From positions 37,797 to 101,796 of the forward strand of contig JADGOB010000001.1 of assembly GCA_017883185.1 (NCBI GenBank): a DNA stretch of 64,000 bases. The letters run 5' to 3'. The DNA comes from Acidobacteriota bacterium (GTDB lineage Bacteria; Acidobacteriota; Vicinamibacteria; Vicinamibacterales; Fen-181). A program made the translations under genes and the position numbers. Below the pieces are notes generated by a model. That model had not been told where the DNA came from and did no database searches. It worked only from the letters and a program-made list of their open reading frames with translations. Positions 12,782 through 18,243 of this stretch are shown piece after piece; position 1 is the first letter of the stretch; each line of letters opens with the position of its first letter.

Positions 12782-12820
12782 ACGCAGTGGGGCAGGCCTT
12801 CAGGCCCGCCAATCAATCGC

Positions 12821-12870
12821 GGGGCTGAAGCCCCGCGCCACAAGATCCGGCCCCGCGCCACAAGATCCGG
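12821..12870. repeat. Hairpin plus exact tandem 20-bp duplication
   Basis: GCGGGGC/GCCCCGC around a TGAA loop (about 12819-12836) forms a strong hairpin. The 20 bp CCCCGCGCCACAAGATCCGG occur twice back to back (12831-12850, 12851-12870). This lies between two convergent genes and could act as a bidirectional terminator or a REP-type element. A similar palindromic GGCAGGCCTTCAGGCCCGCC lies just upstream. Confidence 0.8.
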
Positions 12871-12885
12871 GCGACGCCGACTGCG

Positions 12886-14952
12886 TTAGCGCTGCCCCAG
12901 CCCGGTGAGGATCGGGACGCCGATCTCGATGGCCGGGCCGGGCCGGTCTGCCGCGCCGGGTACGCTCGGCACCACCGACAAACGCACCGCCCGATAACTT
13001 CGGGGTGATCCCGGTCGCGGCAGTACGATGGCGGCACCGTTCCAGTTCGTCCCCTGAACCCGCACCCGGTTCGCCAATTCACCGTCCAGCCGGATTTCAA
13101 CGTTGACCGCTGTGTCCTGGGGTGAAGCCCGCTCCAACCGGATGGGGAGTCTCATCGACGTCGCTTCCGCGGGCACGTAGAACTGCGCGGTGCGATCGGT
13201 CATCCGCCGGAACCGTTCGCCGCGATCGTCCGTGTCCCACGCCGAGAGTCCGATGGCCGCGTTCTTCAGGTTCACCCGGTGAATCGCGTCGCGGCCACGG
13301 ACCGGCACCGATACGATCACGAGCAGGACGAGTATCGCCACCGCCCAGGTAGGGGCGACCGGCTGGTCGCCCGCACGCGCCGCCGCCCCCGCAGGGACGA
13401 CCGGCTGGTCGCCCGTATCCATGGCAGAACCGGCCACCGCAGCCAGCACCAGCCAGAACGCGGTGGCGACCTCAAAGATGAGCAACGGGTGCCCGGTCAG
13501 CCAGGTCAGGATGAACGCCACCAGTCCCGCCGCTCCTCCGGTCGCCGCCGCTGGCAGCCGGCCCGACCGCCATCCCCGCACGACGGCCACGCCGACGATA
13601 CCGATAGTCCACAGGAACGGCACGAATCCGACGACCCCAAGTTCGGCCAGCACTTGGAGGAAGTTGTTGTGCGCGTTCTCGCGCGGAAACGCGACCCGGA
13701 CCGCCGGCGCGAAGTATTCGCCGGACCGGGCGTAGAACGCGCCCACGCCCACGCCGAAGACCGGCTGTGCGGCAATCATCCTCGCCGCACCGCGCGCGAA
13801 CTCGCTGCGGTAGTTGAGCGCTTGCGAGAGCGATCGGCCCGTTTTGTCCGGCAGGTTGAAGCGCCCGGCGACAAACGGCAGCGACAGCATGACGACGAGG
13901 GCGGCGACGAGCGCGCCTCCCCACGCCACTTGTTTCGGGACTCTCGAGACCACCGGCAGCATCACGATCAGAGCCGGGGCGATGGCGGCTAGCGCCGCCC
14001 GCGACCCGGTCAGCCACAGACCGGCTGCCATCAGCGGGACGACGAGCAGCCACAGTAGACCGAGCCAGCGGCCGCCGCGTGATTCCTCTCCCTCCTGGCC
14101 TCCGCGCGACCTCGCCGGGAGGGCCAAGCCGACCGCCAGCAGCAGCGCCATGGCCAGGTAGGACCCTGCCGCGTTGAAATCAGCAAACGCCGCGCTGATA
14201 CGAATCGTCTGCGGGTAATTGAGCAGGGCGGACCAGCCGTCACCGGTCCTGAGCGAGACCGTCACCAGCCGCACGACGCTGTGCGCCGCCACGCCGGCCG
14301 CGCCGCAGGCGGCCATCGCGAGCAGCCGCCGGCCCAGCGCCCGGCTTCGGCCGATTAGCGTCACGGCGGCCGCAAAGAGGCCGAGCCCTTCCAGGAAGAA
14401 CGCCGCGTTGGTCAGGGCGCGGAAGGTGCCGCGATCGCTGAAGAAGTCGGTGCGCAGGAACCTGAACGCGGCGCAGGCGAACGGCCAGGGATAGTCCACC
14501 GCCGGCTGGACGACGAACATCTCGACGATCCCCGAGGCGGCCACCACGACGGCGAGCACCAGCGCCGGACGCCGGAGGGCGCGGACGGAGGTGGTTGGCG
14601 GCGGCCCGGGCCACGCGGCTGACCGCAGAAGCCAGCCCGCGAGACACGCGAGCACAACTGGTTCGCCAAGGCTGAACAGGGTCGTGGAGCCAACGATCGC
14701 GGACAGGGGGCCGGACAGCGGCAGGAGGCCGGCGCACGCGAGGAGCGCCGACGCGGGGAACAGCGCGGCCGCGGCGAACGCGGCGAGGACGATCGCGCGC
14801 GAGGCCGGCACCGTTTCCGCCGCGACGTACGACCAGACGGGAAGCGCCGCCAGGAGCGCCAGCGCCAGCAGGGCGACGGCGCGACCCAAGCGAACCACGA
14901 TGCGCAGAGCCGGCGTGGATGTCATGCGATCGAACGGCTGCGGCGCGGGCAT
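12886..14952 (-). CDS. O-antigen ligase/polymerase family membrane protein
   Basis: A 688-residue protein with about 12-14 transmembrane helices and a soluble C-terminal tail. The Wzy_C/WaaL signature region is seen in GLWLTGSRAALAA, the periplasmic loop with RSEFARGAARMIAAQPVFGVGVGAFY and the PRENAHNNFLQVLAELGVVG block with its conserved His. It should join lipid-linked glycan to an acceptor, or polymerise it, at the periplasmic face. The start is uncertain: the track's 15000 overlaps smpB by 29 nt, whereas ATG 14952 or 14925 do not. The linker before the last helix (about 13350-13415) contains two copies of a 23-nt palindromic repeat read as GDQPV peptides, absent from the family core. Confidence 0.85.
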   Translation of the reverse strand: MPAPQPFDRMTSTPALRIVVRLGRAVALLALALLAALPVWSYVAAETVPASRAIVLAAFAAAALFPASALLACAGLLPLSGPLSAIVGSTTLFSLGEPVVLACLAGWLLRSAAWPGPPPTTSVRALRRPALVLAVVVAASGIVEMFVVQPAVDYPWPFACAAFRFLRTDFFSDRGTFRALTNAAFFLEGLGLFAAAVTLIGRSRALGRRLLAMAACGAAGVAAHSVVRLVTVSLRTGDGWSALLNYPQTIRISAAFADFNAAGSYLAMALLLAVGLALPARSRGGQEGEESRGGRWLGLLWLLVVPLMAAGLWLTGSRAALAAIAPALIVMLPVVSRVPKQVAWGGALVAALVVMLSLPFVAGRFNLPDKTGRSLSQALNYRSEFARGAARMIAAQPVFGVGVGAFYARSGEYFAPAVRVAFPRENAHNNFLQVLAELGVVGFVPFLWTIGIVGVAVVRGWRSGRLPAAATGGAAGLVAFILTWLTGHPLLIFEVATAFWLVLAAVAGSAMDTGDQPVVPAGAAARAGDQPVAPTWAVAILVLLVIVSVPVRGRDAIHRVNLKNAAIGLSAWDTDDRGERFRRMTDRTAQFYVPAEATSMRLPIRLERASPQDTAVNVEIRLDGELANRVRVQGTNWNGAAIVLPRPGSPRSYRAVRLSVVPSVPGAADRPGPAIEIGVPILTGLGQR
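13351..13415. repeat. Two in-frame palindromic repeats inside the O-antigen ligase gene (family C)
   Basis: Copy 1 (13351-13373) and copy 2 (13393-13415) are 23 nt and differ at one base. Each centres on GGGCGACC-ggct-GGTCGCCC, an 8-bp stem with a 4-nt loop (one arm carries A in copy 2). Both are translated, giving two GDQPV peptides. Related palindromes lie at the 3' ends of the genes ending at 39361 and 63002. Confidence 0.8.
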
Positions 14953-14971
14953 CGACACCACGGCGCCGGGG

Positions 14972-15466
14972 CTATCGTTGTCGCTCCTTGACCGCTGCAC
15001 GGGTCTCCCGGTCTGTCTCGCGCCGCTTGATCGTCTCGCGCCGATCGTATTCCTTCTTCCCCTTCGCCAGTCCGATGGCCATCTTGACGAGGCCGTTCCT
15101 GAAGTACAGGCGCAGGGGCACGAGCGTCATGCCGCGCTCGGTGGTCTTGCCCACCAGTTTGCGGATCTCCTGCTTGTGCAGGAGCAGCTTGCGCCGCCGC
15201 AGCGGCTCGTGGTCGGAGTAACCCCGGTGGCTGTAGGGGCTGATGTGGATGTTCATGACGAACACCTCGCCGCCCTCGACCCGGCCGTAACTGTCTCGGA
15301 GGTTCACGCGCCCCTCGCGGATGGCCTTCACCTCGGTGCCGAGCAGCGCCACGCCGGCCTCGAAGGTCTCGAGGATGTGGAAGTCGTGGAACGCCTTCCG
15401 GTTCTCGGCGATGTTCTTCTCGGCCTTCTGGCGATCGGTCTTTTCAGGCATGGCGGTCGCGATCAT
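14972..15466 (-). CDS. smpB: SsrA (tmRNA)-binding protein SmpB
   Basis: SmpB binds the tRNA-like domain of tmRNA and delivers it to stalled ribosomes for trans-translation. The 164-residue protein has the complete oligonucleotide-binding barrel: NRKAFHDFHILETFEAGV, LLGTEVKAIREGRVNLRDSY, FVMNIHISPYSHRGYSDHEPLRRRKLLLH and a basic C-terminal tail, GLAKGKKEYDRRETIK, which threads into the mRNA channel. The ATG at 15466 overlaps the pdxA stop as ATGA, implying translational coupling; MPEKTDRQK at 15451 is an alternative start. Confidence 0.96.
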   Translation of the reverse strand: MIATAMPEKTDRQKAEKNIAENRKAFHDFHILETFEAGVALLGTEVKAIREGRVNLRDSYGRVEGGEVFVMNIHISPYSHRGYSDHEPLRRRKLLLHKQEIRKLVGKTTERGMTLVPLRLYFRNGLVKMAIGLAKGKKEYDRRETIKRRETDRETRAAVKERQR

Positions 15467-17100: not shown

Positions 17101-18183
17101 CTACATGTGCACCGAGAGCCATGCGGCCACGACCTTCGGGCTCGCGTTCCGGCGCAGCGCGGAGATCGCCCGATCGGCGGCCGCAAACGCTTGAAGGGCG
17201 CGTTCGCTCCCGAACGCCGCGCCCAGTTCCTCGAGATCCGCGGCCAGGTCGCCGTTCGCCAGCTCCGCGGGATCCCCGCCCTGCGAGACCAGCGCCACGT
17301 CGCGAAGCAGCGAGGCGAGCATCGTGATCCGGGTCGCCAGTTCCTCGCGCTCGCCGGCCGAGGTGGGCTTGCCCGCGGTCAGGCCGGTGGCCGCCTGCAG
17401 CCGCGCCCGTGGCGACGAGGCCTTCGCGGCCGTTCGCAGGGCCGCCAGCGCCGCGGTCCGCGCCTCACGGTACGCCTTGGACCCAGCTTCGAGCGCACGG
17501 CCAGGGCTCCCGTCGGCCACCGCCGCGATCGCATGTGCCTCGTCAGGGTCCATTCCGTGCCGCTCCACCAGGACGCGCGTCACCTCGGCCGCCGACAGGC
17601 GCCCGAACCTCATCCGGGCACAGCGCGACCGGATCGTAGGCAGCAGCGTCTCGGGACGTGCGCTCACCAGAATGAAGACCGACGAAGCCCCCGGCTCTTC
17701 GAGGCTCTTGAGCAGCGCATCCTGCGCATCGGCGTTCAGGCGATCCGCATCGTCGATGATGATCACCCGACGCCGACCCTCAAAGGGTCGATACGCCGCG
17801 GCCGCAACGACCTCGCGCACCGGCTCGATCTTGATCACGCCGGTGTCGGACGCCCCGGGCCTGAGGACGTCCGGATACGTGCCCTTCGCAATCCGCTTGC
17901 ACGCCGCGCACGCGCCGCAGGCATCGAACGGCAGATCCGCCGGCACGGAGGCCGGCGCCACACCGATCGCCGGCGCCACAAGGGTCCCTGTGGCGCAAGC
18001 CTCCGTGCTTGCGCCGACCGGCGACAGGCAGTTCAGCGCCTCCGCGACCGCCTGCGCCACGAGCCTCTTGCCGACACCCTCAGGACCGGTAAACAGGAGG
18101 CTCGGGGGCAGGGATCCGCGAGCGATGGACCGCGAGAGCAGGCCCAGTGGACGCGCGTGGCCGAGCACCTCGGAGAACGGCAT
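17101..18183 (-). CDS. holB: DNA polymerase III delta' subunit (clamp loader)
   Basis: A 360-residue AAA+ clamp-loader protein, close in length to E. coli delta'. It has the N-terminal FSEVLGHARPLGLLSRSI, a Walker A-like LLFTGPEGVGKRLVA, the zinc-ribbon cysteines (NC followed by DACGACAACKR), VREVVAAAAYRPFEGRRRVIIIDDADRLN (Walker B), ALLKSLEEPGASSVFIL and the SRC arginine region TIRSRCARMRF. The start was moved from 18234 to 18183 (MPFSEVLGH). Between the first zinc Cys and the CGACAAC group there are about 35 extra residues rich in Ala/Pro/Val, encoded by palindromic repeats (17951-18015). This looks like an in-frame repeat insertion in a zinc-ribbon loop. Confidence 0.92.
   Translation of the reverse strand: MPFSEVLGHARPLGLLSRSIARGSLPPSLLFTGPEGVGKRLVAQAVAEALNCLSPVGASTEACATGTLVAPAIGVAPASVPADLPFDACGACAACKRIAKGTYPDVLRPGASDTGVIKIEPVREVVAAAAYRPFEGRRRVIIIDDADRLNADAQDALLKSLEEPGASSVFILVSARPETLLPTIRSRCARMRFGRLSAAEVTRVLVERHGMDPDEAHAIAAVADGSPGRALEAGSKAYREARTAALAALRTAAKASSPRARLQAATGLTAGKPTSAGEREELATRITMLASLLRDVALVSQGGDPAELANGDLAADLEELGAAFGSERALQAFAAADRAISALRRNASPKVVAAWLSVHM
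17951..18015. repeat. Palindromic repeat cluster inside holB reading frame
   Basis: GCCGGCGCCACA occurs twice (17951-17962 and 17969-17980). It is followed by the near-palindrome CACAAGGGTCCCTGTG and then GGCGCAAGC (17992-18000) paired perfectly with GCTTGCGCC (18007-18015) around a 6-nt loop. All of it is translated as the extra Ala/Pro/Val segment in the zinc-ribbon region of delta'. Confidence 0.75.
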
Positions 18184-18243
18184 GACGGACGAACCTACTT
18201 CGGAATCCTGTTCTCGTTCAGACGTCGCCCGCACCGCCTGGCC

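Follow-up and report, generated by a model that had tools for sequence, protein, structure and literature searches.

REPs of the GTAG/CGTC type are short, tagged palindromes that are mostly intergenic and often form inverted dimers; GTGG variants of the tag have been described, and RAYTs are flanked by REPs (PMC3733652). Some of these REPs lie in frame in open reading frames, many of them in replication and repair genes, as dimers or groups encoding 20-30 amino acids, and in recB of X. campestris and X. oryzae different REPs are found at about the same site (PMC3733652). Rickettsia palindromic elements (RPEs) are likewise inserted without loss of frame into conserved protein genes that are unrelated to one another, and extra segments are translated from them (Ogata et al. 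2000, as summarized in PMC10969869). In the present study, we analyzed a stretch of 64,000 nucleotides (the window) and found in its holB gene an insert that is, like the intragenic REPs as far as they are described there (PMC3733652), short, tagged, in frame and arranged as an inverted dimer. However, in contrast to that description, unrelated families, both REP and non-REP, have been captured at one loop by seven or more lineages of a single order, and RAYTs were not detected in the genome of the window (G000). HolB is not named among the REP-bearing genes in the accessible portion of PMC3733652. By comparison of descriptions, the window repeat family resembles the RPEs in sitting in frame in unrelated conserved genes, whereas RPEs are about 150 bp long with an open reading frame for a conserved peptide and the window units are of 25 nt in a 78-nt composite. 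Furthermore, not one conserved frame but at least two are used (VAPASVPA/AGLKARAT versus CGARLQAC/CGAGLRAS). In-frame palindromes themselves are known from RPEs and intragenic GTAG REPs, and it is the convergent capture at one loop that appears to be new; the literature searched, which included few subscription papers, contained no report of a HolB loop capturing repeats.

The delta' protein is a subunit of the replication clamp loader and is essential in well-studied bacteria. Its gene in the window, holB, lies at 17101..18183 on the minus strand and encodes 360 amino acids of the DNA polymerase III delta' subunit, counted from the conserved ATG at 18183 (MPFSEVLGHARPL; alignment A2); an alternative GTG at 18234 would add 17 amino acids. 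The best model for the protein is TIGR00678 with 177 bits against a cut-off of 180.6, i.e. 3.6 bits short. This match is split into two stretches, one on each side of the insert, and the insert is probably the reason that the protein scores just below the cut-off of this standard family model. Orthology to delta' rather than to DnaX is indicated by the best model, by alignment A2 and by the presence of separate DnaX genes in the relatives. Solved relatives in the PDB are 1a5t (E. coli delta') and 8val_E, and Foldseek matches were to HolB and E. coli clamp-loader chains. The window HolB has the fold, the zinc cysteines, the P-loop region and the orthology in common with the usual bacterial delta' (E. 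coli 1a5t), whose motif is CX8CX2CX2C, whereas the motif here is CX36CX2CX2C because of the 78-nt insert. The four cysteines, C52 (codon at 18028..18030, minus strand) and C89, C92 and C95 (the CGACAAC group, 17899..17919, minus strand), are invariant in the 30 sequences of alignment A2, and zinc binding by the insert-bearing protein is predicted to be intact. The spacing of about 8 residues that the earlier note gave for most delta' proteins agrees with a set of 67 bacterial loci in which 8 is the mode; most of these loci lie outside the order, and some may be DnaX. The same note counted about 35 added residues; in fact, 36 is the length of the whole loop between C52 and C89, which is 28 residues more than the norm of the genus.

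The insert occupies 17938..18015 (78 nt, 26 codons, read on the minus strand as the peptide GASTEACATGTLVAPAIGVAPASVPA, within which the predicted protein has VAPAIGVAPASVPA). The earlier note had placed it at 17951-18015; the palindromes are indeed there, but the element is longer. All of the repeats quoted are present, namely GCCGGCGCCACA twice, CACAAGGGTCCCTGTG, and GGCGCAAGC-CTCCGT-GCTTGCGCC at 17992-18015, the last of which occurs once in the window without mismatch and gives two matches at up to three mismatches, against 0.19 expected from shuffles. The insert is made up of two inverted GTGG-tagged REP-type palindromes and a piece of a third. In the order of the plus strand from right to left, these are copy A, TGTGGCGCAAGCCTCCGTGCTTGCG (17989..18013, plus strand; 37.7 bits with covariance model R1, also found by the pattern search; hairpin at 17992-18015), the facing tags GCGCCACA-AGGGTCCC-TGTGGCGC, which form a central palindrome at 17973..17996 (read directly and mostly paired in the fold), the third-unit fragment TGTGGCGCCGGCG (17968..17980, minus strand; direct reading), and copy B, TGTGGCGCCGGCCTCCGTGCCGGCG, inverted with respect to copy A (17938..17962, minus strand; 38.2 bits). 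As DNA, the insert folds at -31.3 kcal/mol versus -20.7 kcal/mol in dinucleotide shuffles (z -4.9), and 0 of 200 shuffles were as good. No Rfam match was found in 17850-18100. A target-site duplication is unreadable because the relatives without the insert are too diverged.

We compared 120 genomes of the order, of which 115 have protein matches to HolB. The nearest sister species (G001), whose HolB is 97% identical, shares the insert at this site, with substitutions of its own, whereas the other three members of the genus (G002, G003 and G004) have the 8-residue loops LSPAAGDA, LSSGGADA and LQPDGGDA, and G005 of the same family has a 13-residue loop (CX13C) without the insert. Among named sequences outside this set, the best match was a Vicinamibacteraceae bin (51%), from which the window probably belongs to the Acidobacteriota, order Vicinamibacterales. 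The comparison within the genus bears out the earlier note in its view that the zinc loop of HolB has taken in palindromic repeats in frame. Repeat-free relatives with the same long loop, which that note had set against its own proposal, were not found in the genus: the repeat-free species have CX8C, and the one sharing the repeat has CX36C. Between G000 and G001, dN is 0.068 and dS 0.093 in the insert region (dN/dS about 0.73; four codons changed), versus 0.015 and 0.057 in the rest of holB (dN/dS 0.26), which, with only a few changes, points to relaxed constraint on the insert.

A genome-wide search for the repeat, also proposed in the earlier note, was noisy when run with the pattern TGTGGCGCNNGCNNNNNNGCNNGCG; its counts outside the genus were not used because reversed-pattern controls were about as frequent in most of 40 genomes. 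The pattern was replaced with R1, built from the 25-nt unit, which did show a dispersed family: at E<=1 the model gave 54 matches for G000 and 85 for G001, and at E<0.01 G000 still had more than 30. The top-scoring ones read TGTGGCGCGGGCCTTCAGGCCCGCG or are variants of it whose stems are AAGC or CGGC. The family is tagged with GTGG or GTAG, in line with GTAG REPs; most copies have TGTGGCGC, and TGTAGCGC is seen in C128 and C203 of G000 and in C3 and C70 of G001. The 25-nt units fall within the 20-40 bp of REP palindromes and their stem changes are compensated from copy to copy (GGGC/GCCC, CGGC/GCCG and AAGC/GCTT; alignment A1). Besides the many dispersed copies, inverted pairs are found in HolB, in NuoL (C201) and in C143 of G001, and longer composites like that of holB occur elsewhere in the genome (e.g. 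C168, C228 and C82). We found no Y1_Tnp (RAYT) gene in G000 or G001, so that a mobilizing RAYT is only putative for these two genomes. RAYT-like Y1_Tnp genes are, however, found in G002, G003 and G004 of the same genus. Three TGTAGGGCGGGCCTTTAGGCCTGCC units lie to one side of the G003 gene and a single inverted unit to the other, and the G004 gene lies between two sets of three GTGG-tagged units in inverted orientation; the G002 genes are flanked by other palindromes, in contrast to the GTAG/GTGG-tagged ones of G003 and G004. The palindromes flanking the RAYTs of G003 and G004 are related to the window REPs in build and different in stem sequence. Since sister species have such RAYT-REP units, mobility by a RAYT is likely for this kind of REP, and the holB copy may have moved in the same way.

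The family also lies in frame in other genes of G000 and G001: NuoL (two inverted units, in a protein with Proton_antipo domains), HemW, two sulfatase-TPR proteins on one contig, a DUF5695 protein and a BBP2_2 porin-like protein. In HemW of G001 (C27, L324), the in-frame repeat consists of three 33-nt REP units in tandem; HemW of G000 (C308, L325) has a changed version of the repeat, and the repeat is absent from HemW of G003 and G005. The frame used is Ala-rich in five of the seven genes including HolB (VAPASVPA from one strand, AGTEAGAT or AGLKARAT from the other) and gives a CGAG/CGAR peptide (CGARLQAC/CGAGLRAS) in the remaining two; in this small sample, the Arg/Trp/His-rich frame was not seen. 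Two candidates were not counted, namely a pyruvate-formate-lyase-like open reading frame (C36:868, L178, of G001), which looks frameshifted in its glycine radical domain, shortly before the REP copies, and an N-terminal GVARGA array in C114 of G001, which may precede the true start.

The copies in HemW, NuoL and other genes and the GTRG-tagged REP with RAYTs in sister species were beyond the earlier note, as were the long loops made of other repeats in other lineages. Over 89 genomes of the order, the spacing between the first and second cysteines of HolB ranges from 8 to 67 residues and is at least 20 in 25 of them, whereas in the paralogue DnaX, which has the same motif, nearly all of the 33 genomes compared have 8 residues and none has more than 15. 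We took the loop DNA from seven genomes with long loops (G107, G065, G070, G040, G087, G093 and G119; G112 was not among the queries) and searched it against the whole genomes; the first five match elsewhere in their own genome. The unit of about 88 nt in G107 is found in more than 40 places, mostly 80-94% identical, that of about 65 nt in G070 in dozens of places, that of 55 nt in G040 in about 20 and that of 72 nt in G087 in about three; the G065 loop matches GGGTTC-type arrays. The G093 loop gave weak, tandem-like matches and was counted as possible only, and the G119 loop, with no other copies in its own genome, was not counted. Control segments of HolB with the same lengths, taken 60 nt further along in these seven genomes, gave only the matches to themselves and three weak or cross-species matches; the neighboring parts of HolB are thus essentially single copy. 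In addition, in the HolB loop of G006, which belongs to the family of the window, we found a TTCGACAGGCTCA palindrome with about ten other copies; this palindrome is also seen at about 15 places in the G000 genome (C366:22020, C248:57 and others). As judged from these sequence matches, at least six further lineages have a long loop consisting of an unrelated dispersed repeat from their own genome, and since the loop repeats are unrelated in sequence, there were at least seven separate captures including that in the window. The loop is a natural repeated experiment on mobile repeat DNA becoming protein, with the DnaX loop hardly changed, and the contrast between the two loops lets one ask whether the captures are neutral or useful.

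The explanation that we consider quite probable is that the insert is a dimer of RAYT-type REPs (GTGG-tagged variant of GTAG) captured in the common ancestor of G000 and G001 and kept near-neutrally in a tolerant loop, which also captured unrelated dispersed repeats independently in other lineages of the order. The dimer would have transposed, or been copied, into the loop of the zinc motif, moved by a RAYT now lost from or unassembled in G000. Its retention would be explained by a length divisible by three, the absence of an in-frame stop, a peptide rich in Ala, Val, Pro and Gly, and the tolerance of the loop between the first and second zinc cysteines for added length. Translation of the insert is expected from the gene sequence and would give a disordered surface loop of 26 residues that affects the clamp loader little or not at all, so that the insert may be nearly neutral. 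Repeats may land widely, those in the delta' zinc loop surviving if they are in frame without a stop, and this permissive loop would have taken in unrelated dispersed repeats independently in the other lineages.

Alternatively, the delta' zinc loop could be a true hot spot for mobile repeats, either a site preferred by the insertion machinery or one at which lengthened loops are selected. If so, unrelated repeats would have been convergently domesticated as parts of the clamp loader. We regard this as rather unlikely. The HemW and NuoL loops of relatives also contain repeat-like sequence, and the delta' loop may therefore be one of several permissive loops and not unique. In the corresponding NuoL loop of G011 (L344) and G004 (L338), for example, we observed other repeat-like peptides (VRLKPDTTTETTT... 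and GTEIRATGAGL...), resembling the case of the HolB loop.

Selection for a longer delta' zinc loop, for example for a new clamp-loader contact, with the repeats as the raw material, seems improbable to us. It would fit the expansion of the loop in many lineages only in delta' and not in DnaX, and the repeated arrival of repeats at the same place. However, the loops share no sequence, composition or length, species of the same genus manage with 8 residues, and the dN/dS of the insert, from few changes, looks relaxed. Furthermore, the structure prediction of the zinc ribbon, which the earlier note had proposed, left the insert unstructured: with AlphaFold2 on 30 orthologues, delta' was otherwise well folded (mean pLDDT 87) and the sole stretch below 50 was residues 60-80, inside the insert. 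It is still more doubtful that the palindrome acts as nucleic acid, with its hairpin controlling how the holB mRNA is translated or degraded. Such a role has been suggested for extragenic REPs, and REPs are hypothesized to influence transcription termination and mRNA stability (PMC3733652). The strong fold of the insert as RNA (-52 kcal/mol, z -3.7 versus shuffles) favors such a role, but the insert is inside the coding region, in the part encoding the loop, and the hairpin in G001 has a changed loop and one changed stem base. Moreover, the loop repeats are palindromic only in part of the lineages: those of G107, G040, G087, G065 and G000 fold better than shuffles, whereas those of G070 and G093 do not. 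Finally, a mis-joining of the repeat into holB by assembly or binning is negligibly probable: although repeats are prone to mis-joins and the draft has 395 contigs and 3.9% contamination, the separate species-level assembly of G001 carries this insert at an identical position, with substitutions of its own, and the reading frame stays open.

The statement in the earlier note that holB is a second essential gene carrying such repeats could be matched to no named gene. The nearest other in-frame palindromes of the window, at 13336-13415, belong to a second family (GGGCGACCGGCTGGTCGCCC type) and give two GDQPV segments in an O-antigen-ligase-like gene (12886-15000; Wzy_C). At 12786-12842, between two genes, is an inverted pair of the HolB REP family, with AGTGGGGCAGGCCTTCAGGCCCGCC on the plus strand and its partner on the minus strand; a tandem duplication of 20 nt, GCCCCGCGCCACAAGATCCG, comes after the pair.
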